Notes: generated from the sequence alone by a model not told the origin. Positions 7,266 to 31,126 are shown, counted from the first letter of the stretch. The stretch: DNA of 42,342 nt from a virus (IMGVR_UViG_3300008111_000038:1-42342); one strand, 5' to 3'. Program-made: numbers and translations.

Positions 7266-7796
7266 GTGCCCGCCACGATTGATGCCACTTTGAGCGGGAC
7301 TTCGGCCAACTCGTACGTGACGCTTGCGGCGGCCAACACCTACTTTGAAACGGTGCCCGACTCCAGCACCTGGACCAGCAAGACCGACGACCAAAAGAAC
7401 CGCGCCCTGATTTCCGCCACCCGCTGGATCGACGGCCTGAGCTTCTACGGCGACCGCTGCACCACAACCCAAGCCCTGAAGTGGCCCCGCGAGGACTACA
7501 CGGTTGACGACATCGACCTCGCCTGCACACTGATCCCCGAGCCGATCAAAACCGCCACCTACGAGCTGGCACGAGCCCTCGCCAACGACACCGACGCCAT
7601 CACCGGCACCACGGGCACCACGGGCATCTACGACCAAGTGGAACTCGGCGAACTCAAGGTCAAGTACAACAAAACCAGCCAAACCAGCGGCGTTATCAAC
7701 AACGTCTTCGACGTCTACCCTTGGCTCCAGTCCTACCTAGGCCCTTACTGCATGGGCGGCGCTGCAAACTACGCCGTCCGCCTGTTCCGAGGTTGA
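7266..7796 (+). CDS. Head-tail connector (DnaT-like/gp6-like adaptor)
   Basis: This 176-residue protein starts at GTG 7266. The segment ANSYVTLAAANTYFETV, then QKNRALISATRWIDGL and LKWPRED, is the signature of the helical adaptor family annotated in databases as DnaT-like ssDNA-binding, which in phages acts as the head-tail connector below the portal. The Gly/Thr-rich stretch around residues 110-122 (ITGTTGTTGIYD) is a short internal repeat. It is first in a run of four overlapping or abutting head-tail joining genes. Confidence 0.78.
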   Translation: MPATIDATLSGTSANSYVTLAAANTYFETVPDSSTWTSKTDDQKNRALISATRWIDGLSFYGDRCTTTQALKWPREDYTVDDIDLACTLIPEPIKTATYELARALANDTDAITGTTGTTGIYDQVELGELKVKYNKTSQTSGVINNVFDVYPWLQSYLGPYCMGGAANYAVRLFRG

Positions 7797-7797
7797 T

Positions 7798-8175
7798 ATG
7801 GGCCTCATCGACGACGTATTTGCCCCCGTACCAACCTCAGTCTTAGCCGACTGGGGCCAAAACATCACGTACATCAAAACTGCAACACCCCGCACCTACG
7901 ACCCAACAACTGGAGTAGTCACTGGTTCCGACACGACCGTCACGGTCAAAGCCGTCATTACTCGTGTCACACCTCGTGAGGCTGAAGGTCTTTATCAAAC
8001 AACTGATCTCAAAGTCATCATCGGCGCCAGCGAGCTTGGCACCTACTACCCAACCGAAGCCGACCGCATCCAGTACCAACAAGCTGGAGCAACCCGCGAG
8101 GCAAAGATCATCGCCATCACCACCTATCGCGGCGATAACCCGGTTTACCACTCTCTAATCGCGAGGCCCCAGTAA
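7798..8175 (+). CDS. Head closure/stopper protein
   Basis: The 125-residue protein is beta-rich, with ITYIKTATPRTYDPTTGVVT followed by TVKAVITRVTPRE. Size, predicted fold and place after the connector fit the head-closure family (SPP1 gp16-like). Its stop overlaps the next ATG by one base (TAATG). The family call rests mainly on gene order and is moderately sure. Confidence 0.68.
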   Translation: MGLIDDVFAPVPTSVLADWGQNITYIKTATPRTYDPTTGVVTGSDTTVTVKAVITRVTPREAEGLYQTTDLKVIIGASELGTYYPTEADRIQYQQAGATREAKIIAITTYRGDNPVYHSLIARPQ

Positions 8176-8714
8176 TGGCACGCCGTCGTAATGACTTCAT
8201 GAAATTAGCTGAAAAATTAGAAGCGGCAGTTTTAGCGCCGCTCATTTTGGGAGCCGCACGCTCGGCACAAGGAGTAGTAAAAGATCTACAAGAACTAGGT
8301 CCTGCATGGTCTGGTGAATTCTCTAACTCATGGGAAATAGCCAGCGAAAGTAAAGTATCTAGCGGAAGCGGATCGCCAGGAGCACCACAAAGATTGCTGG
8401 CCCCTATTCTTACTCCAAAAGAGTACAAATTTAAGCCTGAAGTAAAATACTACATCGCAAATAAAGCGCCACACGCAGACGTAGCACTGGATTTAGTTGA
8501 AAGTACCTACAGATATCCGGGCTTTGAACCAATTAAAGAAGCCGAAAGGGGTAATCGTATTACGGGTGTTCGGGGCGACTTATCCCTACAAGCGGACGGA
8601 CGCAACCAACGCACAGCACCCTTGGATTGGTACACCACATATTTGCGCGGTGGGAAAATAGATAAGACAATAAGCCTCTACATGGATCAAGCACTTCGCA
8701 GCGTGAAGCTATGA
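8175..8714 (+). CDS. HK97 gp10-like tail-head joining protein
   Basis: The 179-residue protein has an N-terminal helix (FMKLAEKLEAAVLAPLILGA), then a segment with WSGEFSNSWEI and a central run that ends PHADVALDLVE, consistent with the gp10-like neck or tail-completion group. Codon use is clearly more AT-rich than in its neighbours (for example AAATTAGCTGAAAAATTA near the start), which suggests a different recent history for this gene. It overlaps the next gene by four bases (ATGA). Confidence 0.62.
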   Translation: MARRRNDFMKLAEKLEAAVLAPLILGAARSAQGVVKDLQELGPAWSGEFSNSWEIASESKVSSGSGSPGAPQRLLAPILTPKEYKFKPEVKYYIANKAPHADVALDLVESTYRYPGFEPIKEAERGNRITGVRGDLSLQADGRNQRTAPLDWYTTYLRGGKIDKTISLYMDQALRSVKL

Positions 8715-9142
8715 ACTACCAAGCAATTCGCGCTGCCGTCGAAAACCCGCTGCTCACAGCGTTTGGTGCACTGGTGCCTCCGGTGCCCGTCTACTTCGAC
8801 AACATCACGGCAGTCCCGCCTAACACCACTACTGAGTACGTTCGCGTCAATGTTACTTTCGGTATTACCAACGAACCCACGCTTACCAGCAGCGTTGACA
8901 ACGCCCGTGGCGCGATTGTTATCCGCATTTTCACGGAGAAAGGCAAAGGCCCCGCCCGCAATCAAACCCTGATCACCACAGCAGTCAACGCACTGGAAAC
9001 ACTCAACAACGCCGCGAAAACAACAAGCGGTGTATTTTTCCGTGTCGGTGAAATTAACGGCCCAACGTTTTCAGCAACAGAGGAAGCCCCGCATTTTGTC
9101 GGGAGGATTGATACCTCCTACGTTGCAACTGTCCTGTCATAG
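8711..9142 (+). CDS. Tail terminator protein (DUF4128-like)
   Basis: The 143-residue protein begins MNYQAIRAAVENPLLTAFGA and continues with VPVYFDNITAVPPNTTTEYV. It then has the alternating strands of small tail-terminator proteins, which cap the tube and fix tail length (lambda gpU class). Size and position, last before the tube gene, support this. The start ATG overlaps the stop of the preceding gene. Confidence 0.72.
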   Translation: MNYQAIRAAVENPLLTAFGALVPPVPVYFDNITAVPPNTTTEYVRVNVTFGITNEPTLTSSVDNARGAIVIRIFTEKGKGPARNQTLITTAVNALETLNNAAKTTSGVFFRVGEINGPTFSATEEAPHFVGRIDTSYVATVLS

Positions 9143-9217: not shown

Positions 9218-9988
9218 ATGGCCACCACCGTTCTGTCCGGCACGTCCGGCGCCCTCTACTACAAACCCGCCGGCACCACCGGAACATTCGGCGAAGCCAG
9301 CGTCAATACTGGCACCGATGTAATCACCGTCGCCCCCTACCTGAACTTCAAGGTAGGCGACCCGGTGAAATTCCGCGTGGTCAACAGCCAAACCGGCGGC
9401 TCCGGCACCGGCACCCTGCCTGCGCCTATCTCTGACGCCACCACCTATTACGTTCTGAGCTACACCGCTGCAACTGGTGCGCTCACCGTATCGACTTCTG
9501 CCGGCGGCACCATTCTGGCCATCACTGACGACGGCACCGCAGCTGCCCCCAACGAGTTTGAGGTGTACTACGCGGACTTCGCTGTTGTCGGCCAAGTCCG
9601 CGACTGGAGCTTCGAGATCAGCCGCGCTGAAATCGACGTCACCACCATCGGTCAAACCCCTGGTCAGTACGTACCCTTCCGCAGCTACATCAGCGGCTTC
9701 GGCGATGGCACCGGCACCGCAACGGTCTACATGACCGATGAGGACGCCGCCCTGTCCAACCGCATGATCGAGGACGTGCTGCAGCGCCAGCAAAACGGTG
9801 CTGCCTTCAAGCTCTACACCGATCGCGTATTCAGCGGCGGCACCCTGAGCGAAACCCTCAGCCGCTCGATCAGCTTCGATGCTGTGCTGACCTCCGCCAG
9901 CCTCAACATCAACCCCGACGATGCCCAATCGGTGACCGTCAACTTCCGCCCCTCCGGCACCCCCACCTTCGACTTCGCCAAGTCCTGA
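9218..9988 (+). CDS. Major tail tube protein
   Basis: The preferred start gives 256 residues. A GTG at 9185 would add 11, but the ATG reads MATTVLSGTSGALYYKP, which matches the start of the paralogue at 17842. The tube domain is split: after GALYYKP about 100 residues are inserted, and the tube fold resumes at VGQVRDWSFEISRAEIDVTT. It ends with FDAVLTSASLNINPDDAQSV. The gene is followed by a strong terminator, as expected for an abundant protein. Two downstream genes (17842-18279 and 18276-19145) share the same core. Confidence 0.85.
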   Translation: MATTVLSGTSGALYYKPAGTTGTFGEASVNTGTDVITVAPYLNFKVGDPVKFRVVNSQTGGSGTGTLPAPISDATTYYVLSYTAATGALTVSTSAGGTILAITDDGTAAAPNEFEVYYADFAVVGQVRDWSFEISRAEIDVTTIGQTPGQYVPFRSYISGFGDGTGTATVYMTDEDAALSNRMIEDVLQRQQNGAAFKLYTDRVFSGGTLSETLSRSISFDAVLTSASLNINPDDAQSVTVNFRPSGTPTFDFAKS

Positions 9989-10014
9989 TACTCTTTTGGG
10001 ATAGCCAGTTCAGT

Positions 10015-10042
10015 AGCCCCGGCCTCAAAGCCGGGGCTTTTT
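10015..10042 (+). terminator. Rho-independent terminator after tail tube gene
   Basis: AGCCCCGGC (10015-10023) pairs perfectly with GCCGGGGCT (10030-10038) over a 6-base loop and is followed by a T run. Confidence 0.9.
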
Positions 10043-10083
10043 ATGTCTAGTCCGCTACAGTAGACCCAAACCAACAGGATTTT

Positions 10084-10431
10084 ATGCCTGCCTCAATTCC
10101 AGTCCGCGCCATTGATCGTCTGCGTAAAGCAGCCAATTTGGAGCCGGCTAAAAAAGTAGTCGAACTCTCTGACGGCAGCAAATTTGAAATGTGGGTGGCA
10201 CCGCTGACGATGGCTGAGCGCGAACGCGCCCAGAAGCAAGCCAAGTCCGACGACGCCAACGCTTTCGCACTCCAACTGCTGATCGCTAAGGCCCTCGACG
10301 AATCCGGCTCCAAGCTGTTCAGCGTCGGCGAAGTGGATGTGCTGAAGAACGAAGTGAAGGACAAAGATCTCCAACAGCTGATGCTGGCGATTCTGACCGA
10401 CGACGCCGAGCCCATCGACCCAAAATCCTGA
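10084..10431 (+). CDS. Tail assembly chaperone, G-type
   Basis: This 115-residue protein, with ELSDGSKFEMWVAPLTMAER near residues 27-46 and an acidic end, matches the size and place of lambda gpG-like chaperones that bind the tape measure during tail assembly. Four bases before its stop codon lies CCCAAAA, a canonical -1 slippery heptamer in the right phase. A second frame (to 10616) is open from there without its own obvious start, so a fraction of ribosomes should make a longer G-T fusion of 177 residues. Confidence 0.85.
   Translation: MPASIPVRAIDRLRKAANLEPAKKVVELSDGSKFEMWVAPLTMAERERAQKQAKSDDANAFALQLLIAKALDESGSKLFSVGEVDVLKNEVKDKDLQQLMLAILTDDAEPIDPKS
10419..10425 (+). promoter_or_regulatory. 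Programmed -1 frameshift site (C CCA AAA)
   Basis: In the zero frame the codons are GAC CCA AAA TCC TGA; slipping back one base gives CCC AAA ATC CTG. The heptamer fits the X XXY YYZ rule and lies four bases upstream of the zero-frame stop (10429-10431). Its position between tube and tape-measure genes is where G/GT frameshifting occurs in siphoviruses. Confidence 0.85.
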
Positions 10432-10616
10432 GCGTCGAACTCCGCAAAGACAACTGGCTCATGCTCCAGTTTGGCGTTGCCAAGGAACTGGGCCTGACTC
10501 TTACCGAAGTTCGGACGACCATGACCGCCGAGGAATTACTCGGCTGGAGCGCCTACTTCCAAATCCTGAACGAAGACCAGCAAAAGGAAATGGACAAGGC
10601 CAGACGCCGCCGCTAA
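10425..10616 (+). CDS. Tail assembly chaperone, T extension (by -1 frameshift)
   Basis: The 63 codons from ATC 10425 to TAA 10614-10616 read ILSVELRKDNWLMLQFGVAK and continue with ELGLTLTEVRTTMTAEELLG, ending in basic residues. The motif with an early Trp-x-x-Leu and LTxTEVRTTMTAEE is like T-type chaperone extensions. It has no good start codon of its own and is expected only as a fusion to residues 1-114 of the upstream protein. The stop lies in the loop of a hairpin terminator. Confidence 0.8.
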   Translation: MLSVELRKDNWLMLQFGVAKELGLTLTEVRTTMTAEELLGWSAYFQILNEDQQKEMDKARRRR

Positions 10617-10631
10617 CCCGGCGGCTTTTTT
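10606..10631 (+). terminator. Terminator between chaperones and tape measure
   Basis: GCCGCC (10606-10611) and GGCGGC (10620-10625) form a stem whose loop holds the T-extension stop codon, followed by six Ts. The open frame of the tape measure begins in this T run (TTG 10630). The hairpin may act as a partial terminator that lowers tape-measure output. Confidence 0.72.
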
Positions 10632-13302
10632 GTCGCGTAAACTGAAGTACCAGAGTGTGACGCAAGCCGTGGCCGCTTACAGAGCTGATATTGAAATCGG
10701 CGTAAGAGGTGTACGGTATCTAGACGAACTTCAAAATAAGCTCACCCAAGTATCAAAAACTATTGAGCAAGTAAACAAACAACAGGTCGTTATACGCAGA
10801 ACTATTGCCGGAGCAGCTTCCGCTACTCCCATGGGACCAGGAGGTAGTGGAGTAACAAGCGCAAGCGCTCAAGCAGCAGCATTCGCTGTTGAAAAGCGTG
10901 TAAGTGAACTGCGTCGTGCTGACGCGCAAGCGCAACTTAAATCTTTAAAAGACAGGTCTTTTGCGGAAAATTATATCAGCGGAATTATTAGCCGTAGGTT
11001 ACAAACAAAGCAACAAGAACTAGCCGCAGAACAAAAAATAACTGCCGAAAAACAAAAACAAGCGGCCGCAACGTTACGTTCGCGCGTAGGTAGCGCTGCG
11101 AGTAACGCCGTCATTGGTGGTGCTTTTCCGTTGTTGTTTGGGCAAGGGGCCGGAGCTGCTGTTGGTGGCGGATTAGGCGGCGCAGTCGGAGGCGCCTTTG
11201 GCGGGACACTCGGCTTTGGTCTATCCCTTGTTGGTACAGCTATCGGACAAGCCGTTGATGACGCGGTAAAACTTAATCAGGAACTTAACTCTTTAAACAA
11301 CAGTCTATCTTCTACAGGCGGAACATCCCGCACAACCGCATCCGATATTTCTCAGCTTGCATCTCAGCTAGGTATAGCTAAAGATGAGGCGTTAAAACTT
11401 GTCGCAGCGTTTTCTGAGTTTGGATCTGCAAACATCAGAGAAGCTTTAGCCACAAGTTTTGGTGCTGTTGGCGGCGAGGAAGCGTTTAATGCTCTTGCGG
11501 CAGCCAGAGACAACAAGAGCACTTTAGAAGCTATTGTAAAACTTCGAGATACAATTACTGACTCACAAGCAAAAGAAGCATTAAAGCAACTAGAAATAAA
11601 TGGCTCGGCAGCAGCTAACGCCTTTTTACAACAACGACTGATTACTCTTCAAGAACAAAAACTTATTAAAGTCGCACAAGAAATTACCTTGATGGATAGA
11701 TTATTAGCAGCGGCAGCTGCCCTTGGAGCGCAAGGGCAATTTATTGACCCTGCAATGTTCGGAAAAGACCGTGCCAATGAGGTGCGCAAAGGAGCAGCAG
11801 AGCGTAAAAAAGCTCAAGACCAAGCGTTGCAAGATACACGCAAATTTCTTTCCGATGTTGCACGTTTAAACGAACAATTTTCGACCAAAAATACAAAAAG
11901 TCCAAAACCTCCAGAAGATCGTACGGCCGCTTTACAGGATGATCTACAGGCCCTTATTGAAATGGGTAATGCGGAGGATCTTATTCGTGATCTTCGTTTT
12001 CAGGGACGTGATCTACTCATTCCAGAAGTTGAACTAACCAAAAAACTTTCCGACATCGCGCGGGATAAAGCCCAAGCTCTCAGGCAAGCTAATTACGAGA
12101 CAGAACGTGCTGCCATAAATCAATTCGCACAAGCTAGAGTCAGCATTGCACAAAAAGAAACAGAAGACCAGATACGCGACATACAACAACGTAGATTTGA
12201 GGAAGAGTTGCGTTTGCAAGACGCTGTACGTAATTCCGTAAAAGTGTTTACAGATCTACGTCAAGAACAAACCCTGCAGGTTCAATACGGAAAAACATAT
12301 CTTCGCTTAGTTACAGAAGGTTTGCTGCCTGCAGAAGCGGCTCGCAGAGCCAACTTTGAAAAGTTAGTAGCGCAAGAACTTCTTGCCGTAGAAGAGCAAA
12401 TTAAACTAACTGAATTGGCAATTATGGAAGCAAAAGCCAGAGGAGCAAGCACAGTAGAACTAGATAAGCAACTTAAAACATTTAAAGAACAACAAAAGGC
12501 TATTACCGCTCAAGCAGCAACAGGACCCGGACAAGGCCCTACACAAACACAAAGGCTGGAATCTGCTGTTGCAACAGCCCGAGGTCAACTAAATGAACTT
12601 ACAGATTTTACAAATCAAGTTGTCGCTGGTGCTCAAGCCATTGGTGACGCTTTCTCTCAAGCCTTCCGAGGTCTTGTCACCGGAGCAATGACTGGTCAGC
12701 AAGCGCTTGCCGCGTTCTTCAAAGGTGTCGGCGACCACTTTATGGACATGGCCAGCAAGATGATCGCCAAGCTCATCGAGATTTACATTCTCGAAACTGT
12801 CCTTGGTTTTATTAGCGGTGCAGCGGCGGGATCTTTCACATCCAAGTCAAATGCTGCTGGTAAAGCCACTTTTGGAGGAAGCTTCAAAGGAACCGGAGCC
12901 AGCACTTTTGGCTCAGGCGGTATTCGTGTTCCAGGTTATGCCGAGGGTGGTTTTGTTACCGGTCCTACCCGTGCTGTAGTTGGTGAAGGCGGTGAAGCGG
13001 AGTACATTATCCCCGCGAGCAAGATGCGCGGCGCAATGGCTCGCTACTCTGCTGGCGCCCGAGGTTCTGCGGTCATTCCAGGCAATGGCACATCCGGTGG
13101 AGGTGGCGCAGCAGGCTCTGGTTCCGGTGCAATCGACGTGCGCTACACCGTTGAACGCATCAATAGCGTGGACTACGTTACGGCGGACCAATTCCAACGC
13201 GGTATGCGCCAAGCCGCCCTACAAGGTGCCGAGCAAGGCGAACGCCGCGCACTGGGACGCCTGCGTAACTCACCTGCTACCCGCAACCGCGTCGGAGTCT
13301 GA
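10630..13302 (+). CDS. Tape measure protein
   Basis: The 890-residue protein sets tail length. It has long charged helical regions (about 35-170 and 390-660), a Gly/Ala-rich hydrophobic segment near 175-215 (VIGGAFPLLFGQGAGAAVGG and onward) likely to insert in membranes, and a C-terminal part with GFVTGPTRAVVGEGG then EAEYIIPASKM, typical of tape-measure ends. The start is uncertain: TTG 10630 lies on the terminator T run, and GTG 10657 is the next option; neither has a good ribosome site. Base composition is AT-rich up to about 12.6 kb and then becomes GC-rich like the rest, which suggests a mosaic gene. Confidence 0.9.
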   Translation: MSRKLKYQSVTQAVAAYRADIEIGVRGVRYLDELQNKLTQVSKTIEQVNKQQVVIRRTIAGAASATPMGPGGSGVTSASAQAAAFAVEKRVSELRRADAQAQLKSLKDRSFAENYISGIISRRLQTKQQELAAEQKITAEKQKQAAATLRSRVGSAASNAVIGGAFPLLFGQGAGAAVGGGLGGAVGGAFGGTLGFGLSLVGTAIGQAVDDAVKLNQELNSLNNSLSSTGGTSRTTASDISQLASQLGIAKDEALKLVAAFSEFGSANIREALATSFGAVGGEEAFNALAAARDNKSTLEAIVKLRDTITDSQAKEALKQLEINGSAAANAFLQQRLITLQEQKLIKVAQEITLMDRLLAAAAALGAQGQFIDPAMFGKDRANEVRKGAAERKKAQDQALQDTRKFLSDVARLNEQFSTKNTKSPKPPEDRTAALQDDLQALIEMGNAEDLIRDLRFQGRDLLIPEVELTKKLSDIARDKAQALRQANYETERAAINQFAQARVSIAQKETEDQIRDIQQRRFEEELRLQDAVRNSVKVFTDLRQEQTLQVQYGKTYLRLVTEGLLPAEAARRANFEKLVAQELLAVEEQIKLTELAIMEAKARGASTVELDKQLKTFKEQQKAITAQAATGPGQGPTQTQRLESAVATARGQLNELTDFTNQVVAGAQAIGDAFSQAFRGLVTGAMTGQQALAAFFKGVGDHFMDMASKMIAKLIEIYILETVLGFISGAAAGSFTSKSNAAGKATFGGSFKGTGASTFGSGGIRVPGYAEGGFVTGPTRAVVGEGGEAEYIIPASKMRGAMARYSAGARGSAVIPGNGTSGGGGAAGSGSGAIDVRYTVERINSVDYVTADQFQRGMRQAALQGAEQGERRALGRLRNSPATRNRVGV

Positions 13303-13712
13303 TGGAACTGATCATTGGCAACACGCTTTCCCTAAACGGAGGCAGCTACCAGAACTACAACCTGAACGGCAGCAACTTTCTCCCGTTTGGATTTAGCGGC
13401 GTCGTCGTCAACCGCAGCGGCGACAACACCCAAGCGTCGCTGGTCTTCCCAAACAACGACCTTGCCCGCTCATGGGCATCGGAAGCCGCCGCAAACCAGT
13501 GGGTCGTCACCGTCGCACTGGTCAACGTCTCCGCAAACACCACGATCTACACCTACACCGGCCAGGTCGGGGCATCATCGTGGGATGAAACCAGCGTCAA
13601 TCTTCAACTCAACAGCGTTTTAGATGCCGTTGGCGCAGACGTACCCTTTCGTGTAATCGGTCAAGGTCTTGTTGGAGCCGTCCCCACCAGTAGCGCCTTC
13701 CGCCTGTCTTGA
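13302..13712 (+). CDS. Minor tail / distal tail protein
   Basis: This 136-residue, beta-rich protein (MELIIGNTLSLNGGSYQNYN, later YTYTGQVGASSWDETSVNL) follows the tape measure with a one-base overlap (TGATG). Such small proteins in this slot belong to the distal tail or tail-tip joining group. The sequence pattern with GFSGVVVNRSGDNTQAS resembles DUF1833-like tail proteins. The function is inferred from position and size. Confidence 0.65.
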   Translation: MELIIGNTLSLNGGSYQNYNLNGSNFLPFGFSGVVVNRSGDNTQASLVFPNNDLARSWASEAAANQWVVTVALVNVSANTTIYTYTGQVGASSWDETSVNLQLNSVLDAVGADVPFRVIGQGLVGAVPTSSAFRLS

Positions 13713-14073
13713 GCTGATCGGGATGCCCTTCCGCCTTGGTGCGGACGGATCAGACGGCTACATCGACTGCATCCACGTCGTTTACACAGTAGAACGCGCT
13801 TTAGGCATCCCAACGCCAGACTTCAATCCACGCTGGTACGACTTACCGCGAAAGTCTGTGCTGCGAGACCTATACCGCTGGGGCTGTCGTGTAACAGATG
13901 GCGGCTACGATGGGGATGTGGTTTTGCTGCCACAAAGTAGCTGGGCATTTGGCGTCGCATGGCAACGAGGGATTCTGCTGATCAGCCCTTTGAGCAAGCG
14001 AGTGGTCTGGTCCCCGCTGGCAAACCTATCGAGCGCGTACTTCTTCCGTACGAAAAAGAACTGTGCGACATAA
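13669..14073 (+). CDS. NlpC/P60-like tail-tip peptidase
   Basis: The core LIGMPFRLGADGSDGYIDCI, then PTPDFNPRWYDLP and a C-terminal RVVWSPL, has the layout of the NlpC/P60-type tail proteins (lambda gpK-like). Cys in IDC is the expected nucleophile. A catalytic His is not obvious, so activity is uncertain. The longest frame starts at TTG 13669 inside the preceding gene; ATG 13723 is the first ATG but would cut into the conserved LELIG start. It overlaps the next gene by 115 bases. Confidence 0.68.
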   Translation: MLEPSPPVAPSACLELIGMPFRLGADGSDGYIDCIHVVYTVERALGIPTPDFNPRWYDLPRKSVLRDLYRWGCRVTDGGYDGDVVLLPQSSWAFGVAWQRGILLISPLSKRVVWSPLANLSSAYFFRTKKNCAT

Positions 14074-17000
14074 TTGGTTGCAGCACAGAAGAATACAAAC
14101 AGTTTCTTTTTGAACTAGAACGTAATGCCTACGTGCGTCCTGCGGAATATGCTCATATTCCGGATATACGATGTGATCCGGCTACTACATCTGCTTTAAT
14201 TAGTCTTGCTATTGGCCTGGTTTTATCAGGCGTTTCGTATCTTCTAACACCAAAACCTCGCGCACCAGAGCAGCAGCAAACACGACAAATAACTCGTCGC
14301 GGTCGCACGGGTCAAGACCGCTTTATTCAGTCCACCAACTTTGACGGCTTTGCCGATCTTGCCGAATTTGGCGACGCTATCCCGATTGTTTGGACTCGTT
14401 ACACCGGCACCACAGGCGGAGTCGTTATTGCCCCTCTGCTGACTTGGAGCCGTGCCTTCAGTCTTGGCAATCAGCAAGCCGCAAAACTGGTTTACCTGAT
14501 CAGCGAGTCTGGCCTATCTGCGCCAGACATTTCAGGTGTTTTTATTGGCAATACTGCGCTTTCTGTTCAAGACGCTGACAACTACATTTTTGCCTGGGAC
14601 GCTCGCCCTAGCTACGATGCCAGCCGCATCACGGGTTACAACGAAGGCGGCGTCGGCTTTTCTGCCTGCCTGACACCATCCAACAGTACCCAGTTTGGTG
14701 TATCCAACCCAATCGCCAACTGCACGGGCTATCGCGTCAACTGGCAAGTTATTTCATATCCAGAAGATCTCGACGAAAAAGCCGAGCGTGATATTAGAAA
14801 TCAGCGCCTAAAGGTTTGCGGTAGACCCGGCAGGTCGGCTGGTATGCCCGGTGTAGGTCGTGACTACCCTCGGCGCCTTGGTGTTATCGCTGCCGGCAAA
14901 GATCAAACTGGCACGACTTTTCGGATCAGTGGCACACGCTTACCACGCAAACCGAGTGACTTTGAAAAAAGTACAACAATTACAACGGAAGATATTAACG
15001 ATGCTCTAGACGCTGAGTGCATTGCAGCAGATGAAGTGCTCCAAGTCGGAGAACAACTAGTTGTTGGCACACAACTGCTGAAGGTCACAGGGCGGTCTAG
15101 TCAGTTATGGCAACGTGGTAGCGACGTGGATATCTACTTGTCAGCAGCAGTTAAAGGCGGTCCACTTAGCGATATTGCGGCAAACAATGCAATCGCAGAT
15201 AACGAAAATCCCAGCACCAGAAATTACGGGGTTATCTACTACTCCATCTGTCGCGCCACGACCGCAGTATTTAGGAATAACCGTCGTTGCCAAGTAACCG
15301 AAATTGGCATCAAGAGTCAAGTATGGGGCCGGATAAACGGTCTAGCTAACTTCAATCGCGTGCCAGATCCTGAAACGCTGCAGGGATATGACGACGATGG
15401 TGTTCAATTTAGCCTTGGTAATAACAACGAGTATTTCCCACGTGTTTCTATGTTCCGCGTGCAAATACGGAAGGTCGGACAAACCTCATGGGGCAATGTA
15501 GGAGGTGCCTTGGCTGTACGCGGTGGCACGCCTACGGATCAGCATTTTCAGTTGCGCCTTAATCACGGCACCGATGCTGAATATGAGTTCCGCTTAAAGC
15601 CGATCTCAAGTGCCGCAATACGTGACGGCCTGCGGGAACTGTTGGTGCTTAACCCTAATGCCGAGTACGTCAACGACGGTATTTTAAGTTTCCGTGGAAC
15701 ACGCGAACAGATTTACGCTAACGAAACTTCCGACGAGTTAAACCCGTTGTTTGAAGCACGGGCGATGCAAACGAAAGGCTGGGGTAATGCCTACGCATCG
15801 GAAAGCTACAGAATCCCGACACGGGCAACATACTTCAATATGGGCGTATTTAGTCTTACAAATGTAGACTATACCGGAAGACTTATAAATGTTACGGATG
15901 AGCAAGAGCGTTTGCAACGCGCATTTATGTATGAGTTATTCGGTGATCCTCTAAACCTTAGCCAGCGTAAAACCGCAGATCTTAAAGTTAAAACAGATCG
16001 CGGAGTTGTTAAATTACTGCTTCGTGTCGAAGCTCAAGATGCCGACCCCGGAACAAACGTAGCTTTACGCTGGCGCGTTCGCTTTGCAGAAATCTATGAA
16101 GCCAGACCGATCGAGGATTCAGCGTTTAACGTCGGGCAAACAATCGGCATCAAAGTACGCCTAAAAACAGATTCCCTTTATTTAGACGGTAAGTTTCCGG
16201 CCAGCATCGAAGACAACCGCGTCGAACTACGGATGCGTCTTCAAATCACTAATACAGCAAATAAAACACTAACTCCAGAAAATCGCGGCTGGCGTTTATT
16301 TGAAACATACGCCGCATTTGCTGAGGTCAGTCGCTACGGCAACATCGTTACCCACAGTTGCGACTCCGGCCCCGAGCACCAAGTCGTTTATGTCAATCAA
16401 ACAGGAGGTGTTGCCCTTGGCGACTACTCAAACGTAAACACCGCCTTGCTGGCACTACGCTCAAACCGCAATATCACAAGCGTTGATCAGTTGCGCCTGT
16501 GGATTAAATCAGGCACTACCAACAGCAACAGTTTCCCACGCTTGGTGCAATACCTTCTGCAAAATGTTAAAGGTATTTCGCCGCAAATGATTGACACAGC
16601 TTCGTTTAACGAGGCTGATTCGTGGTGCAATGCCAATGGGTTGTACTACGACGGCGCTATTACAAGCCGAACAAACCTCCGCAGTTTCATCACAAGTACC
16701 GCTCCGTTTTTCCTGCTTAACTTTGTAATGCGTAATGGGAAGCTGGCTTTGCTGCCCGCGTTGCCTGGCGGTGGATCGGCTGCAATGTTCACTGCAGGCA
16801 ACATCATTGAAGGATCTTTCTCGCTGGAATATCTAGACATCAGCGAGCGCCGTCCCATCCGGGCTGAGATGGTTTGGCGTCGCAACTTACTTAACGAATT
16901 TCCGCAACAACAGTCATTTGTACTGGGCAGTCCAGGAGACACTTTGGAGTCTTTTGATATGTCGGCGTTCTGTACATCGGAATCCCACGCCCGCAAAGCC

Positions 17001-17432
17001 GGTAACTATATTCTGGCGCTACGCAAGTTTGTAACTCACGCGATCAGATTTAAAACCACGATGGACAACGCCTCCATCGGACCCGGCTCAATTATTACGG
17101 TGGCGCTAAATCAAACTGCCGCTTCCCGTTTTACGAACGGCTCTATCGGACCAACTGGGGTAATCACCACCGGTCAAAACCTCCCGAATGGCACGTACCC
17201 GATCACGTACTTTATTTCTGGCAACTCAACCACACTGTCAGGGACGTTGACCGTCATCGGAGGGCGCACCACAGACGCAGCGTTGTTTAACAGTATCTTC
17301 TCAATCACGCAAGAAAATATCGTCACCAGCACCTACTTAGTGGAGCAGGTGGAACTGGACGAGGAAGGTTTGGTGTCAGTGTCTGCGACAGAATACCCGT
17401 ATAACGCCATTGCCTCCGCCGTCGGGTTGTAG
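13959..17432 (+). CDS. Central tail-tip/baseplate hub protein
   Basis: The 1157-residue protein begins within the preceding gene (ATG 13959; no later ATG precedes the conserved part). The segment EKELCDIIGCSTEEYKQFLF, then IPDIRC and a hydrophobic stretch (LISLAIGLVLSGVSYLL, about 80-96) before a basic Pro-rich turn, is the usual start of the J-type central tail protein in siphoviruses. The rest is beta-rich with likely fibronectin-like and hub domains, including a block with RVRFAEIYEARPIED near residue 706. It should contact receptors or carry the fibres and open at DNA ejection. Confidence 0.85.
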   Translation: MATRDSADQPFEQASGLVPAGKPIERVLLPYEKELCDIIGCSTEEYKQFLFELERNAYVRPAEYAHIPDIRCDPATTSALISLAIGLVLSGVSYLLTPKPRAPEQQQTRQITRRGRTGQDRFIQSTNFDGFADLAEFGDAIPIVWTRYTGTTGGVVIAPLLTWSRAFSLGNQQAAKLVYLISESGLSAPDISGVFIGNTALSVQDADNYIFAWDARPSYDASRITGYNEGGVGFSACLTPSNSTQFGVSNPIANCTGYRVNWQVISYPEDLDEKAERDIRNQRLKVCGRPGRSAGMPGVGRDYPRRLGVIAAGKDQTGTTFRISGTRLPRKPSDFEKSTTITTEDINDALDAECIAADEVLQVGEQLVVGTQLLKVTGRSSQLWQRGSDVDIYLSAAVKGGPLSDIAANNAIADNENPSTRNYGVIYYSICRATTAVFRNNRRCQVTEIGIKSQVWGRINGLANFNRVPDPETLQGYDDDGVQFSLGNNNEYFPRVSMFRVQIRKVGQTSWGNVGGALAVRGGTPTDQHFQLRLNHGTDAEYEFRLKPISSAAIRDGLRELLVLNPNAEYVNDGILSFRGTREQIYANETSDELNPLFEARAMQTKGWGNAYASESYRIPTRATYFNMGVFSLTNVDYTGRLINVTDEQERLQRAFMYELFGDPLNLSQRKTADLKVKTDRGVVKLLLRVEAQDADPGTNVALRWRVRFAEIYEARPIEDSAFNVGQTIGIKVRLKTDSLYLDGKFPASIEDNRVELRMRLQITNTANKTLTPENRGWRLFETYAAFAEVSRYGNIVTHSCDSGPEHQVVYVNQTGGVALGDYSNVNTALLALRSNRNITSVDQLRLWIKSGTTNSNSFPRLVQYLLQNVKGISPQMIDTASFNEADSWCNANGLYYDGAITSRTNLRSFITSTAPFFLLNFVMRNGKLALLPALPGGGSAAMFTAGNIIEGSFSLEYLDISERRPIRAEMVWRRNLLNEFPQQQSFVLGSPGDTLESFDMSAFCTSESHARKAGNYILALRKFVTHAIRFKTTMDNASIGPGSIITVALNQTAASRFTNGSIGPTGVITTGQNLPNGTYPITYFISGNSTTLSGTLTVIGGRTTDAALFNSIFSITQENIVTSTYLVEQVELDEEGLVSVSATEYPYNAIASAVGL

Positions 17433-17434
17433 CC

Positions 17435-17809
17435 ATGCCTTTCCCCAATCTGACGCCATCTGCCCGGAACTTTGCCCCCGGCGATTTTCCGATTAAGCAG
17501 TACAAAGCCCTGAGTGGCGCTGAAATTCGGATCCGTTATGGCAACCTGCGTACGGAAGCCACGCTGGACCTGACCTTCGAGAACATCCGCGACACCAACG
17601 CTGCCGGTTTTATGTCGCACTACAACGAAACCCAAGGCACGTTTTTGACCTTCGAGCTTCCGGGCAGTGTATTCAACGGCTGGGGCGCCAGTGCCTCACT
17701 GATCAATGCTCCGAGTGGTGCGGCTTGGCGATACGACGGACCACCACAAATCACCAGCGTGTATCCCGGACGCAGCACGGTTCAAGTGAAATTGATTGCT
17801 GTCTTGTAG
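17435..17809 (+). CDS. Minor tail protein
   Basis: The 124-residue protein starts MPFPNLTPSARNFAPGDFPI and continues with LRTEATLDLTFENI and SHYNETQGTFLTFELPG. This pattern is common in small tail-tip proteins next to the hub in cyanophage-like siphoviruses, though I cannot name a family with certainty. It follows the hub gene by three bases. A baseplate or fibre-adaptor role is inferred. Confidence 0.62.
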   Translation: MPFPNLTPSARNFAPGDFPIKQYKALSGAEIRIRYGNLRTEATLDLTFENIRDTNAAGFMSHYNETQGTFLTFELPGSVFNGWGASASLINAPSGAAWRYDGPPQITSVYPGRSTVQVKLIAVL

Positions 17810-17841
17810 TTGGCTAACATAACCTTACGGCGGTACTGATC

Positions 17842-18279
17842 ATGGGCTTTTACACAGGGCGAACCGGGTCACTGGTTTTCAACAGTAAGCCTGTTGCCAA
17901 AATCCGTGACTGGTCACTGGACACGACCGTCGAACTGCTTAGCACCAACACGATTGATAGCGTCAGCAATACTTTTACCCCCGGCGTCAAAGGTGCCAGC
18001 GGCAGTGCAACCCTTGTGTACTACCGGCTGGAATCCGGCGAATCCACGTCGTACACCCAGTTCACCGCCCTACTAAGCAAGATCCACAAGACCGGCGCTA
18101 TTACCGAAAGTGACCGTGTGCTGCTGACCCTAAATGTGGGTGGCACAACCAACGACGAGATCAGTTTTAAAGCCTACATCACATCTGCATCAGTCAGTGT
18201 TTCCACGGGCGAACTTTCCGTGGTGCCAATTCAATTCACCGTTGATGGTGATTTTCTGAGCAACGGCACGATTGTATGA
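17842..18279 (+). CDS. Tube-domain protein, second copy
   Basis: The 145-residue protein is a compact version of the tail tube protein. GRTGSLVFNSKPVAKIRDWS matches GTSGALYYKP and VGQVRDWS of the tube gene, with the 100-residue insertion missing. GASGSATLVYY matches the tube's GTGTATVYM, and FKAYITSASVSVSTGELSV matches FDAVLTSASLNINPDDAQS. It lies beside the hub, away from the main tube gene, so it may form an adaptor ring at the distal end or a fibre-attachment ring. The paralogy is seen in the sequence; the role is inferred. Confidence 0.72.
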   Translation: MGFYTGRTGSLVFNSKPVAKIRDWSLDTTVELLSTNTIDSVSNTFTPGVKGASGSATLVYYRLESGESTSYTQFTALLSKIHKTGAITESDRVLLTLNVGGTTNDEISFKAYITSASVSVSTGELSVVPIQFTVDGDFLSNGTIV

Positions 18280-19145
18280 CCGTCTTTCTAGGTCAGTACG
18301 GCAAGGTCAAGCTGCGCCGCAATGCGCAAGGTACGTTTGCGTCTGAGATCAGTCCAGATGACGTAAACATAACCCTCAATCGCGTGGGATTCGATGGTTC
18401 ACTGGAAAACCTGCTGACAGGCGATCGCGTCGATATTTCTACAAACGATGCCCGTGGATTAGTTTGCTTTCCGCTAGCGACATGGCCAGACGCAACAACG
18501 ATAAAAAAAAGCATCAGCCTGTTTGTCAACGTCAACCAAGCCGGTGGTCTTCGCTTCTTTCGTGCTTTTTCTGATGCCGTAAATAACGTACGAGCCAATG
18601 AGTTAGCCCTCGCCGATTTTGCTGGTGCGCCCCTTGCAATCAGCGTAACAGTAAGGGATGTTGATTTTAACTTACTAGGCAATGTAACAAGCTACGAAAT
18701 AAATACCGACCGCGAGGCAATCGACACCACAGTTCTTTCTGATAAGTTCAAACAGCAATACACCGCCGGACTGATTAGCGGTAACGGCACAATTAACTGC
18801 ATGTTCAGTTATGAGTCGACCGGCGTCGAAGAAACACCGCTATTGATGCTGCAGTTAATTCAGCGCGTGGAACTTGGCGCGGCATTTGACTGCGCGTTGT
18901 TTTTGACGGATAACGAAACAGATAGCAGTTTGCAAAATGTTTACTACGAAATCAGCGCCCTCGTTACTAGCGCCGGGGTCACGGTCAACACTGATTCCGT
19001 GATTGAATGCACGATCAACTTTGTTAGCGCAGGCGAAATCAGGCTGTTGGTCGGCAGACCTACGGGGTATGTGTTACAGGAAAACGACGACAAGATCCGC
19101 CTGGAACAGAATCTGGATTATCTGCTACAGGAGACCGAGGACTGA
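18276..19145 (+). CDS. Tube-domain protein, third copy with C-terminal repeat
   Basis: The 289-residue protein overlaps the preceding gene by four bases. Its second half (VTSYEINTDREAIDTTVL, GNGTINCMFSYE, YYEISALVTSAGVTVNTDS) aligns by eye with the tube gene's RDWSFEISRAEIDVTTIG, GTGTATVYM and FDAVLTSASLNIN. The N-terminal half (LGQYGKVKLRRNAQGTF) looks like a further beta domain. The end reads GYVLQENDDKIRLEQ then LLQETED, a short repeat common at the ends of phage tail proteins. It is probably a baseplate ring or fibre-anchor protein. Confidence 0.68.
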   Translation: MTVFLGQYGKVKLRRNAQGTFASEISPDDVNITLNRVGFDGSLENLLTGDRVDISTNDARGLVCFPLATWPDATTIKKSISLFVNVNQAGGLRFFRAFSDAVNNVRANELALADFAGAPLAISVTVRDVDFNLLGNVTSYEINTDREAIDTTVLSDKFKQQYTAGLISGNGTINCMFSYESTGVEETPLLMLQLIQRVELGAAFDCALFLTDNETDSSLQNVYYEISALVTSAGVTVNTDSVIECTINFVSAGEIRLLVGRPTGYVLQENDDKIRLEQNLDYLLQETED

Positions 19146-19200: not shown

Positions 19201-21255
19201 TTGTCAGACGCCAGGATTACCCAGCTACCGGCGCTACCCGAGGCGTCCGTTGCAAGCACCGATGTTCTGCCTATCGCGGACATTTCTGCCAGCCAGACCA
19301 AAAAGGTAACGGTCAAGGATCTGACCGAAGCGGGCATTTCGCTTGCTGACGCGGGCTCAATCGACCTCGAAAAACTGGATCAGTCCAGCACCACCAAGCT
19401 TGGTGCCACTGCTCTTGCTGACGATGCAGTAACCGCCGCCAAGTTGGCAGACGACAGCAGCATTGCTGCCGATAGCGTCGCACCAAGCACAGATAACTTT
19501 GAAGGTCGCGGATTTTTTGATACCACCGACAGCAACCTCAAGGTCTACAGCGCAGGGTCCTACGCCCAAGTTGTGCTGCCCGAGGCTGGTCTTGCCACTG
19601 GTGCAGTTACCACCGCCAAGATTGCTGACAATGCAGTCACCACGGGCAAAATTGACGCCGCTGGTCTCGGCACTGCTGCCCTTGCAAATGACGCTGTAAC
19701 GACCGCCAAGATTGCCGACGACGCAATCACCGCCGATCAGCTTGCTACTAACTCTGTCACCGCAGACGCCATCGCCTCTGGTGAAGTCGGCACCAGTGAA
19801 TTGGCTAGTAGTGCAGTCACCTACGACAAAATCCAAAACGTCAGCGCAACTGACCTTGTTCTTGGTCGTAGCAGTGCTGGCGCCGGCAACGTCGAAGAAA
19901 TTCCGTGTACCAGTGCAGGTCGTGCCGTCATTGGCGCGGCTGATGCTGCTGCACAACGCACTGTCCTCGGACTCGGCAACCTCTCCACTGCAACTGGAAC
20001 GTGGACAAACGGCGCCACGTTTAGCGGCACCAGTAGCGGCACCAACACCGGCGACCAAACAGTCCAACTGACTGGCGATGTAACCGGCATCGGCACCGGT
20101 ACGTTTGCGGCGACGATCAGTAACGCCGCTGTAACAGAGGCAAAAATCGCCTCTGATGCTGTTAGCACCACCAAGATTGCTACGGATGCTGTTACTGCCG
20201 CCAAACTCGCCAACAACTCCACCGTCCTGACGCAGGCTGGTGCTCCGACGGGTAGCGGTGATTTCACCGGTCAGTACTACATCAACACTGACAACGAAAT
20301 TCTCTACTACTGGGATGGCAGTGCTTGGCAAACTGTCAACATTTCGATCGCCCAAGCAACAGCATCTGTAACCGGCACCGTCAAGGTTGGCACTGGTTTG
20401 CAGATGAACGCCAGTGGTCAACTCGACCACCTCAACGTCGTCACGGCTGGTACATATACCAAAGTCACAGTTGACGCGCAAGGTCACACCACTGTCGGCG
20501 CCACGCTGCAGCCCGCCGATATCCCAAACCTTGATGCCAGCAAGATTACGACTGGCACATTCGGTAGCGGCTTCTTGGCTGCAAACAGCGTTACCGCAAC
20601 GCAGCTAGCCGATTACGGCATTGCCCAAGTCAGCGAGACAGCCCCAACACCTGAATTTGCCGGTCAGTGGTGGGTGAACCCCTCGGACCGTTCAGCGTAT
20701 ATCTGGGTTGGTACCGTCGCCCCGACACCCAACGGTTACTGGCTGCTTGTTGGTTACGGCAGCCCGACACAGCTCAACCTGCGTTTCGGTGGCACTTACA
20801 ACGCCAGCACCAACCTTGTTGTCAGCCTTAACGAGTACGGCACAGAAGCTGGCCTCACCATCGGGCAAGCGGTTGGATTACCCAACAGCCAAAACAACGG
20901 CGTTTACCTTGTCGTTACTACTGCTGGCACGGGCACTACGCCAGCCCCAGCAGTTAGTTTGGCGATTGGCGACTGGATCCTGAGCCAAGGCACGGGCGCT
21001 AACTGGACCAAGATCGCTGTGGTGTCTGGCGCCAGCGGCACCTTTAACGATTACGACATTCTTAGCGACGGTACGTATTTCACGCCGGATATGCCCGGTG
21101 TATCAGATGTACGTGATGCACTGGTGCTGCTGTGGGGTCGCAGCCAGATTGCAACGACTAGCCAAATCGGCCTAGTGCTAGAAACTACAGAGGTGCTTGT
21201 CGACAACAGCACTGGAGCCATGACAATCGGTGTGGTTGACGATGGCACCTACTGA
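19201..21255 (+). CDS. Tail fibre protein 1
   Basis: The 684-residue protein starts at TTG with a strong AAGGAG site. After an N-terminal attachment part (ARITQLPALPEASVASTDVL) it has many short repeats of the type DDAVTAAKLADDS, DNAVTTGKI, ADDAITADQLATNSVTADAI and TDAVTAAKLANNS, which are characteristic of trimeric phage fibres and their shaft. A middle block FSGTSSGTNTGDQ is a classic fibre motif. Further on, GQYYINTDNEILYYWDGSAW and GQWWVNPSDRSAYIWVG are carbohydrate-binding-like blades. The C-terminus ends VVDDGTY. Confidence 0.88.
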   Translation: MSDARITQLPALPEASVASTDVLPIADISASQTKKVTVKDLTEAGISLADAGSIDLEKLDQSSTTKLGATALADDAVTAAKLADDSSIAADSVAPSTDNFEGRGFFDTTDSNLKVYSAGSYAQVVLPEAGLATGAVTTAKIADNAVTTGKIDAAGLGTAALANDAVTTAKIADDAITADQLATNSVTADAIASGEVGTSELASSAVTYDKIQNVSATDLVLGRSSAGAGNVEEIPCTSAGRAVIGAADAAAQRTVLGLGNLSTATGTWTNGATFSGTSSGTNTGDQTVQLTGDVTGIGTGTFAATISNAAVTEAKIASDAVSTTKIATDAVTAAKLANNSTVLTQAGAPTGSGDFTGQYYINTDNEILYYWDGSAWQTVNISIAQATASVTGTVKVGTGLQMNASGQLDHLNVVTAGTYTKVTVDAQGHTTVGATLQPADIPNLDASKITTGTFGSGFLAANSVTATQLADYGIAQVSETAPTPEFAGQWWVNPSDRSAYIWVGTVAPTPNGYWLLVGYGSPTQLNLRFGGTYNASTNLVVSLNEYGTEAGLTIGQAVGLPNSQNNGVYLVVTTAGTGTTPAPAVSLAIGDWILSQGTGANWTKIAVVSGASGTFNDYDILSDGTYFTPDMPGVSDVRDALVLLWGRSQIATTSQIGLVLETTEVLVDNSTGAMTIGVVDDGTY

Positions 21256-25161: not shown

Positions 25162-26289
25162 ATGGCGCAAAACGCAATCCGATTGATCGACCTATTCCGG
25201 TTCTACAAGGGGCTGCCGCACCAGATGGCAGCCCTTACTGAGCTGGAGCAGGCCATCAAAAAAGCCAATCCGCACATCTTGGGCCGCGACCAAGGCTGGT
25301 TCAAGACCTGGGCCGTCGCGGGCAAACAAACCAGCTTCCCCAACAGCTGGGAAGGTGTGCTTGAAGCCGCCCGCGTCGCTGGCGCCAAATTCCCAGAACT
25401 AGTAGCCGCCCAATGGGCACTCGAATCAAGCTACGGAAAACTGGTTTCAGGTAGAAACAACTTTTTCGGCCTTAAGGGTGAAGGCAGCGATAAGAAAACC
25501 CAAGAATTTATCAACAATCAGTGGGTCACAATCACCGACAGTTTTATCGACTTCCCCGATTTACTGTCCTGCGTGATGTATCTTGTCGACCACTGGTACA
25601 AGGACTACAAAGCATACAAAGGCTGCAATAACGCCACCACCCGCGAGGAAGCCGCAAAATGGCTACATAAACAAGGTTACGCAACCGACCCCAACTACCC
25701 AGGAAAACTGATCCAGCTGATGGAACAGCACGCTGGAACAAAGCCTGTTGTCCCACCAAACGAAAAGCTTCTGAAAGTTCCCTACGAATATCAACTGGGA
25801 ACGGACGACGGCGCTAAGGGATACCGCCAGTGCTTCAGCTCCAGCTGTGCGATGGTGGCCCGCTATTACGGGAAGATTTCGGGGGACTACGAATACAACA
25901 AACTCCGCGCCCGCTTCGGCGACACCACCGACCCCAAAGCACAAATCGCAGCCCTCAAAGCACTGGGACTAACCGCCACCTTTGAGATGGATGGCACAGT
26001 CGAGGACTTGGAAACCGAAATCGCCAACGGCCACCCCGTCCCAGTCGGCTGGCTCCACAAAGGCTTGGTATCAAACCCCAGCGGTACGGGCCACTGGACC
26101 GTCGTGGTGGGATATACACCGACGCACTTCATCCACAACGATCCGTTCGGTGAGGCAGATCTGCTCAACGGTGGCTATGTAAGCAACAAAGGCGGCGCCG
26201 GTATTGCATACTCACGCCGGAACTGGCTACCTCGCTGGCTCATTGAAGGCAACGACACCGGCTGGTTCATGCGTATCCGCCGAGGCTAA
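25162..26289 (+). CDS. Endolysin: glucosaminidase plus C39-like peptidase
   Basis: This 375-residue protein has two enzyme-like halves. Residues about 55-190 match the glucosaminidase (FlgJ/LytG-type) fold: FPELVAAQWALESSYGKL, with E88 as the expected acid, then NNFFGLKGEG. Residues about 200-375 match C39-like cysteine peptidases: YRQCFSSSCAMVARYYG with Q223-C224, GHWTVVVGY with H311, and HNDPFG with D327. It has no signal peptide, so release needs a holin. It could cleave both glycan and cross-links, or the C39 part could process a bound protein. The upstream small hydrophobic genes complete a lysis cassette. Confidence 0.85.
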   Translation: MAQNAIRLIDLFRFYKGLPHQMAALTELEQAIKKANPHILGRDQGWFKTWAVAGKQTSFPNSWEGVLEAARVAGAKFPELVAAQWALESSYGKLVSGRNNFFGLKGEGSDKKTQEFINNQWVTITDSFIDFPDLLSCVMYLVDHWYKDYKAYKGCNNATTREEAAKWLHKQGYATDPNYPGKLIQLMEQHAGTKPVVPPNEKLLKVPYEYQLGTDDGAKGYRQCFSSSCAMVARYYGKISGDYEYNKLRARFGDTTDPKAQIAALKALGLTATFEMDGTVEDLETEIANGHPVPVGWLHKGLVSNPSGTGHWTVVVGYTPTHFIHNDPFGEADLLNGGYVSNKGGAGIAYSRRNWLPRWLIEGNDTGWFMRIRRG

Positions 26290-28365: not shown

Positions 28366-28532
28366 AAGACTAAATCTGAGACTCGCAGAATTGATTGTGG
28401 GCGGTCATCAGGACAAAGCTCCAGTGCCTTCATCCTCGCGGAGAAAGCATCTGGAGCGACGATGAACAGATCGTGAGTACCACCGTGACGCGCGTGCATC
28501 CGAACGCGGTACTCAAAATCCTCTTGGATCAC
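28362..28532 (-). CDS. Small protein coupled to DNA polymerase
   Basis: A 56-residue frame starts at GTG 28532, overlapping the polymerase stop (GTGA), and ends with a TGA overlapping the next ATG. It reads MIQEDFEYRVRMHARHGGTH, then DLFIVAPDAFSARMKALELC. The seamless overlaps on both sides argue that it is real. It may be a polymerase accessory or processivity-related peptide; nothing in the sequence proves this. Confidence 0.72.
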   Translation of the reverse strand: MIQEDFEYRVRMHARHGGTHDLFIVAPDAFSARMKALELCPDDRPQSILRVSDLVL

Positions 28533-30355: not shown

Positions 30356-30380
30356 GCCTGGTAGGGCAACTTGTACCCTA

Positions 30381-30656
30381 CTACTCTAGCAGGCTGTCAA
30401 CCTCCCTGGCAGAACAGAGCACCGCCGCCGCGAGTGTCCCACCCTCGGGAAACCCGAGGAAACACCGCGCCTTCCAGTGCACGCAGTTCCTGCACGGACC
30501 ACCATCCGACTGGGGCTTGTAACTCTGACGCAACCGTTCCCCGCGAATCTCTTCTAACCCTGCCGCACTGGAGCGATAACACCTCATACAAAGCACTGCA
30601 TTAGTGGTGTGCTTACCGCACTGCTGGCACGGCCTGCTGTTGATCGAAACTGCCAT
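30381..30656 (-). CDS. Cys/His-rich protein with CxxCxHW...LGxPEGG tail
   Basis: The 91-residue protein starts at ATG 30656, overlapping the stop of the gene upstream (TGATG). It has an N-terminal zinc ribbon-like CQQCGKHTTNAVLCMRC and a C-terminal module CRNCVHWKARCFLGFPEGG with a final Cys seven residues later. The same C-terminal module occurs in the neighbouring upstream gene, so the two share a duplicated metal-binding tail. A DNA- or protein-binding regulator is likely. Confidence 0.72.
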   Translation of the reverse strand: MAVSINSRPCQQCGKHTTNAVLCMRCYRSSAAGLEEIRGERLRQSYKPQSDGGPCRNCVHWKARCFLGFPEGGTLAAAVLCSAREVDSLLE

Positions 30657-31126
30657 CACTCTGAAAAGCAAGAACACTCTCTAAAGAATCCAGCCTCACC
30701 GCCTTCAGGTATGCCGAGATCGCAGTAATCACCATGCCAGTGCTTACAAGCGACGCAGCCGTTACCCTCTTGCTGGCGCTGCTTTAACCGACGACGCGGA
30801 ATCTCAGGAAACATTTCCTTGTACGTCCGCCCAGTCCGAATCGAATGAACCGACTGGCGCGAAATACCTAACGCCTCAGCCAAGGTGTCATCAAAACGCC
30901 AATCCTCCAAGATCATCTTCACCTCCTTAGGTGTCATCCTGCGGCGGTTGACCGGCAGCTCCCGCAGCGACAACTGCACCTCTTTGTTAGCAACCTTGTC
31001 GAAGTAAACGTTCCAGCGATGTCCGCAGGATCTACACCGAAACCTATAGGTACGTAGGTGTGGTTTGTGTTTCCATACGTGCGTGTTGATGATTTTTCTG
31101 AAAGTGTGAGTGCAATGTTCAGCCAT
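30656..31126 (-). CDS. Zinc-finger/HTH regulator
   Basis: The 156-residue protein has three visible parts: an N-terminal zinc-finger half (YRFRCRSCGHRWN, about 27-39); a helix-turn-helix (DTLAEALGISRQSVHSIRTG, about 79-98) followed by RTYKEMFPEIPRRR; and a Cys/His tail CVACKHWHGDYCDLGIPEGG with a last Cys. The HTH end SIRTGRTYKEM is like CIKSGKTWKHV of the gene at 32165-32575. It is probably a transcription regulator of the early block. Its start overlaps the upstream gene by eight bases. Confidence 0.78.
   Translation of the reverse strand: MAEHCTHTFRKIINTHVWKHKPHLRTYRFRCRSCGHRWNVYFDKVANKEVQLSLRELPVNRRRMTPKEVKMILEDWRFDDTLAEALGISRQSVHSIRTGRTYKEMFPEIPRRRLKQRQQEGNGCVACKHWHGDYCDLGIPEGGEAGFFRECSCFSE

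Follow-up and report, generated by a model that had tools for sequence, protein, structure and literature searches.

Tube-domain paralogues encoded between hub and fibre genes suggest reuse of a tube building block as a fibre mount at the tail tip of a cyanosiphophage-like virus

Why does a tail module with a main tube gene of its own carry two further tube-like genes between its hub and its fibres? The question is raised by a viral contig of 42.3 kb (IMGVR_UViG_3300008111_000038; the window is its whole analysed length of 42,342 nucleotides), in which the tail module is ordered as terminator, main tube gene (T1), chaperone-like gene, tape measure, a J-like hub flanked by three small tip genes, the two additional tube-like genes (T2 and T3) and the fibres, the first of which is termed F1 (Table 1). 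Judged by T1, the nearest isolates are the cyanosiphophages KBS-S-2A (73% identity) and S-2L (31%), and the putative hosts are probably cyanobacteria. We propose, with moderate confidence, that T2 and T3, as tube-fold paralogues of ancient origin, would serve as a tip adaptor for the adjacent fibre, with a C-terminal tail of T3 docking the N-terminal anchor of F1.

The original prediction, made from the sequence, described T1, T2 and T3 as three paralogues of one tube domain with common motifs in a fixed order, and both statements were borne out. The three open reading frames are present at exactly the predicted coordinates, and all motifs were located in each of them: a shared GxxG first strand, a second motif reading VGQVRDWS, AKIRDWS and LGNVTSY in T1, T2 and T3, respectively, and, in the same order of proteins, a helix motif (AEIDVT, ELLSTNT, EAIDTT), a later strand (GTGTATV, GASGSATL, GNGTINC) and a final block (LTSASLN, ITSASVS, VTSAGVT). 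Single-sequence phmmer searches among about 7,300 open reading frames matched T1 to T2 at 2e-5 and 9e-5 and T1 to T3 at 8e-6 and 9e-6. Profile-profile comparison of the core domains with hhalign gave P = 1.7e-10 for T1-T2, 1.8e-7 for T1-T3 and 1.9e-6 for T2-T3, far below the controls, in which the best of 40 column shuffles per pair reached 0.0065-0.026 and reversed comparisons 0.013 or weaker. As judged by these profiles, T1, T2 and T3 carry a homologous tail-tube domain.

Comparison with known families pointed in the same direction. The T2 profile retrieved the main tube proteins of the isolates S-H1, MED4-184 and DSL-LC06 at 3e-23 to 3e-17, and the T3 profile retrieved those of the same three isolates at 9e-14 to 2e-7. 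PHROG major tail families were matched by T1 (158 at 6e-4, 1407 at 6e-3) and by 16 of 39 T3 relatives (best 5e-6, PHROG 1407), and T2 relatives matched PHROG 10528 and PHROG 1407 (2e-12 each) as well as PF16460 (3e-4). Comparison of T2 and T3 with the gpM-like and g174 profiles revealed no match to the Dit/gpM distal tail ring families (P 0.03-0.19); the gpM role is filled by g174 (P 3e-6) and not by T2 or T3. Sequence searches for solved structures returned none for T2 or T3, and no T3 relatives were found in bacterial genomes.

The GxxG strand leads all three families (G6/G9 in T2 and T3, G8/G11 in T1), with G6 and G9 invariant in the T2 family and in the T3 family. Directly after this strand, T1 and T3 contain about 105-115 extra residues; T2 is bare at this site, apart from a short loop in some of its relatives. 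The predicted architecture was hence correct for the bare T2 and for the insert of about 100 residues in T1, but not for the additional N-terminal domain assigned to T3: because the first strand precedes the extra residues of T3 (about 115), they form an insertion that occupies the T1 insertion site. Sequence similarity between the two inserts was not significant (hhalign P = 0.37), although they share the site and a GDxV stretch, and a common origin is not supported by sequence. At its C-terminus, T3 ends in a tail with the consensus P.GYILKEDDDRI.LEQSLDFLL.E..D, whose conservation extends to the very last residue across 39 relatives. The AlphaFold2 model of T2 (predicted local distance difference test, pLDDT, 77) gave 35 Foldseek matches in the PDB with E no higher than 0.001, almost all of them tail tubes or related neck or baseplate proteins, including those of lambda (gpV), R4C, SPP1, 80alpha, monocin and T5; the predicted fold of T2 is the tail tube fold, consisting of a beta sandwich, one helix and a long hairpin.

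The T2-T3 pair lies between the hub and the first fibre gene in more than 100 viral contigs. In locus tallies that count overlapping loci of one contig separately, the two genes abut or overlap wherever both are in view, their distance is -3 or 0 nucleotides for 146 of the 169 T2 genes tallied (T3 start and T2 stop overlap as ATGA in the window), and in 139 cases an F1 relative comes next after T3, all others but one being at contig ends. Since T2 and T3 come after the hub in all loci, they were not classed as shaft proteins; this role was ruled out for them, and T1, flanked by the tail terminator and the assembly-chaperone-like gene and tape measure, holds the terminator/tape measure position, is conserved independently and is the tail shaft protein. 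In a tree of the core domains, whose long branches make the deeper order unsafe, T3 formed a single clade (100/100), T1 a clade with KBS-S-2A and S-2L (100/97) and T2 nearly one clade, which indicates that the tube copies are old and separately maintained.

Further placements of tube and tip genes were observed in relatives. One further tube-domain protein, of 134 amino acids, is encoded in a T1 phage that has a lambda-type tip, its gene lying between those for tape measure and gpM (L125:5887-6291); this is another, separate placement of an extra copy. The shaft gene is swapped in a different relative, where a bare tube domain of another type (148 amino acids, L072:1519-1965) occupies the main tube position and T2 and T3 are retained. 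The position of the gpM-like gene also shifts, either before gpL or after the hub (window 17435-17809; L102:14034-14423).

The module to which T2 and T3 belong was assessed by co-variation, expressed as correlated pairwise identities over 67 distinct loci (24 for T1). Identities amount to 75-97% for T1 across most relatives, to 30-90% for T2 and to 25-58% for the hub. T3 co-varies equally with T2 and with fibre residues 1-60 (0.72 each), and T2 with the fibre at 0.56. T1 showed no significant co-variation with T2 (0.12, p 0.19) or T3 (0.12, p 0.14) and a value of 0.84 with the chaperone-like gene; T1 is inherited independently of T2 and T3. The gpL-like gene, the hub and the gpM-like gene form a block (0.87-0.96), to which T2 and T3 are coupled at 0.37 and 0.49 through the hub and at 0.52-0.60 through g174, the gpM-like gene, which reaches 0.60 with T3. 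Though linkage contributes to all values, the near-neighbour borders tape measure/gpL and hub/T2 score merely 0.33-0.37.

The distribution of the pair follows the type of tip. Among compact-hub relatives, every one of the 103 loci in view contains both genes, and neither was seen in five T1 phages with a complete lambda-type M-L-K-I-J tip (L118, L149, L155, KBS-S-2A and S-2L; the view of L149 extends about 0.8 kb past J), three of which (KBS-S-2A, S-2L and L155) have a fibre gene directly after J. We therefore regard T2 and T3 as additions of the tip type and not of the tube. They were likewise not found in the more distant phages S-CBS1, S-CBS3 and S-LBS1, which have a compact hub and a second gpM-like gene instead.

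The tail of T3 is similar to short LLxE repeats, and a forward scan of viral contigs for Y[ILV]LxE[ND]GDK[ILV] detected this pattern close to the C-terminal end of many small proteins that are unrelated, the next gene usually bearing an F1-type anchor (MADxKIS/RITxL...). A reverse scan started from the fibre anchor revealed the same association. Counted over neighbouring gene pairs by one script, an LLxE tail followed by an anchor-bearing gene gave odds ratios of 24.8 (P 4e-11) and 17.7 (P 1e-13) in the two opposite scans, values that are rough because each scan selected on one partner, near-copies were removed only in part, T3 relatives make up some of the pairs and a crude criterion was applied. 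Variation within the T3 family agrees with such a pairing: in a tail-less T3 clade of 23 loci, the tail is absent in 21 of 21 loci with the C-terminus in view, and the fibre N-terminus is different in 20 of 20 with the next gene in view. A tblastn search of phage records with the 28-residue T3 tail gave no match, the query being too short, and a solved structure for the fibre anchor was not found by sequence. Across many unrelated viral contigs, small proteins of 50-170 amino acids with LLxEnGD repeat ends were observed directly upstream of MADxKIS/RITxL fibre genes (L266-L323, L324-L403), and a few small proteins with such ends come before other fibre or spike starts (L381, L383, L331 and L352). 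It is possible, although we hold this view only tentatively, that LLxE tail and MADxKIS/RITxL fibre N-terminus represent a general, exchangeable docking pair in many unrelated tailed phages, and that T3 arose as such a tail grafted onto a tube-fold ring.

Several findings weigh against the proposed fibre mount. The T3 model is weak in its tube core (pLDDT about 60) and yielded no PDB match at E below 0.001, the best being lambda V (E 0.035, probability 0.97), whereas its best-predicted part is the insert (block pLDDT mostly 74-90); with the model unsure in the core, the fold assignment of T3 rests on sequence. Neighbouring genes are co-inherited through linkage, so that the correlations are no proof of contact, and the null correlation of T1, which varies little, has limited power. 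The switch of tail and fibre is a single evolutionary event in the T3 family. Furthermore, in KBS-S-2A, which does not possess T2 and T3, the hub gene is immediately followed by a fibre gene that encodes a related anchor, and T3 is thus not the sole possible mount; in the scans, 60 of 81 anchor-bearing fibre genes were without an upstream LLxE gene. A strict dependence of the anchor on T3 is ruled out by KBS-S-2A and these many anchor genes.

In the arrangement that we favour, of which we infer the virion location, ring assembly, stacking order and tail-anchor docking, T1 builds the tail shaft and T2 would form a ring, or a segment of one, that is undecorated and attached to the tube or tip core, while T3 would be its decorated partner, whose C-terminal LLxE strand-repeat tail would dock the N-terminal anchor of F1. 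By analogy with the order tail tube protein, p140, Dit and hub in T5, the components may be stacked as T1, T2/T3, gpM-like ring and hub. The link between T2/T3 and the fibre that had been anticipated is supported by linkage, co-variation, tail/anchor pairing and absence with lambda-type tips; the two additional rings or collar envisaged at the same time are plausible by the precedent of T5 p140 (PMC10038345).

Alternatively, T2 and T3 could be extra distal tube rings that act as initiator or adaptor, like T4 gp54, and start tube polymerisation on the tip complex without directly holding fibres. Their tube fold and the constant tip placement of their genes would suit this role, T4 gp54 and T5 p140 are additional tube-like rings at that very place, and g174 co-varies with both proteins. 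However, an initiator ring must contact T1, which does not co-vary with T2 or T3, and T1 tubes exist with lambda-type tips in phages without the pair. As T3 moreover co-varies best with the fibre N-terminus and its type of tail precedes fibre genes elsewhere, we consider a role restricted to initiation unlikely.

Even less probable, in our estimate, is a mount located elsewhere on the particle, e.g. a neck collar with whiskers. The loose coupling to the hub permits it, and tube-like rings also resemble neck rings, as seen in PDB matches to neck chains of phage 812, but T2 and T3 follow directly after the hub and gpM-like genes in a conserved order, far downstream of the neck genes (7266-9142), and their presence tracks the tip type and not the tube. 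A comparably small chance is assigned to T2 and T3 as non-virion assembly factors for fibre or tip: they adjoin the fibre gene and overlap translationally, yet in known cases a fold of the tube-domain type, with its first strand and hairpin region conserved, is structural and forms rings, and no chaperone signature was present. The fibre mount at the tail tip remains our preferred reading, and the data suggest that a tube building block is reused there.

The compact tip itself is a reduced lambda type, since g174, g133 and g136 are related by profile to gpM, gpL and gpK. Outside the tail module, the window encodes a lysis-type protein in which a glucosaminidase domain is fused to a C39-like peptidase domain (25162-26289), and, on the minus strand (28529-32165 and 34666-37062), a replication block comprising a family A DNA polymerase, a dCTP deaminase-like protein and a protein with PriCT-2 and AAA domains.

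Table 1. Tail-module features of the window, with coordinates counted from its first nucleotide (aa, amino acids).
Feature	Coordinates	Strand	Basis
Tail terminator	8711..9142	+	PHROG 179 3.8e-13
T1, main tail tube protein, 256 aa	9218..9988	+	73% identical to Cyanophage KBS-S-2A CPKG_00057
T1 insertion, ~105 aa (about aa 18-120), between first and second strand	9269..9577	+	alignment with bare T2
Tail assembly chaperone-like	10084..10431	+	PHROG 20784 1e-31 (unknown function); PHROG 344 (chaperone) 1e-4
Tape measure protein	10630..13302	+	PHROG 167 6.6e-5
g133, reduced gpL-like tip protein	13302..13712	+	hhalign to gpL-like (PF05100) family P 1.5e-7
g136, gpK-like (NlpC/P60-related) tip gene	13669..14073	+	hhalign to gpK-like family P 1e-4
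Tail hub, J-like	13959..17432	+	PHROG 27845 1.5e-37; PHROG 31 (central tail fibre J) 1.3e-11
g174, gpM-like minor tail protein, tip ring candidate	17435..17809	+	PHROG 15525 7e-23; hhalign PF05939 P 3.2e-6
T2, bare tube-domain paralogue, 145 aa	17842..18279	+	hhalign; AlphaFold2/Foldseek; T2 hidden Markov model
T3, tube-domain paralogue, 289 aa, with insertion and C-terminal LLxE tail	18276..19145	+	hhalign; constant T2 partner
T3 insertion, about aa 17-130, beta-rich	18324..18665	+	relatives' alignment and T3 model
T3 C-terminal LLxE tail, aa 262-289, PTGYVLQENDDKIRLEQNLDYLLQETED	19059..19142	+	kept in 39 T3 relatives
F1, first tail fibre gene; N-terminal anchor about aa 1-50	19201..21255	+	after T3 in 139 loci

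Fibre mounting is understood for a handful of siphophages. The conservation of a putative mount of two paralogues across a large set of environmental phages, which are cyanosiphophage-like as judged from their nearest isolates, suggests recurrent reuse of the tube subunit for mounting fibres. The T3 tail and the fibre N-terminus offer a testable interface, and if the pairing of tail and anchor is general, fibre-adaptor genes would become recognisable in unannotated phage genomes.

Comparison with known systems places T2 and T3 among the tail tube and major tail proteins (PHROG 1407, 10528 and 158; PF16460, PF06199 and PF25595; lambda gpV, R4C tail tube protein), with which they share the domain by profile and, for T2, the predicted fold; they differ in being encoded after the hub instead of between terminator and tape measure, and in coexisting with a separate shaft protein. 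Two tube paralogues within one siphophage genome also occur in the Synechococcus phage S-H1, whose tandem tube genes (L176, 19522-19938 and 19941-20363) are close T2 relatives by profile, but both lie at the main tube position and not at the tip; the S-H1 shaft may consist of two subunits. T4 gp54 and gp48 likewise form extra tube-fold rings between shaft and hub, although T4 is contractile, these rings initiate tube and sheath, and gene context and sequence are unrelated.

The closest parallel is found in T5, in which a ring between tube and Dit is made of p140, a tube-protein duplicate with no decoration domain, and is surrounded by the side-fibre collar (PMC10038345), and in DT57C, in which fibre N-termini bind the collar protein by strand addition or donation (PMC10713586). 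As with T5 p140 and DT57C TTMP, extra tube-protein copies are encoded in the tip module and tied to fibre attachment (PMC10038345, PMC10713586), and p140 is devoid of the decoration domain of its shaft protein just as T2 is devoid of the T1 insert. In contrast, T3 does carry an insert, at the insertion site of T1; p140 has two domains, as does T5 pb6 (a trimer), whereas here two single-domain paralogues occur, one of them decorated and tailed; and a sequence relation between p140 and T2/T3 was not seen beyond the common tube fold. No collar gene like that of p132/LtfC, which in T5-type tips is an Ig-like dodecamer, turned up in the family searches of tail genes, none of which was aimed at p132. 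The authors of the T5 study considered p140 and p132 to be restricted to, and a landmark of, T5-like phages (PMC10038345), and we do not claim that T2 and T3 belong to the T5 mount family. Rather, by analogy, they would work like the T5 mount in an unrelated phage, as a system that probably evolved independently and was doubled.

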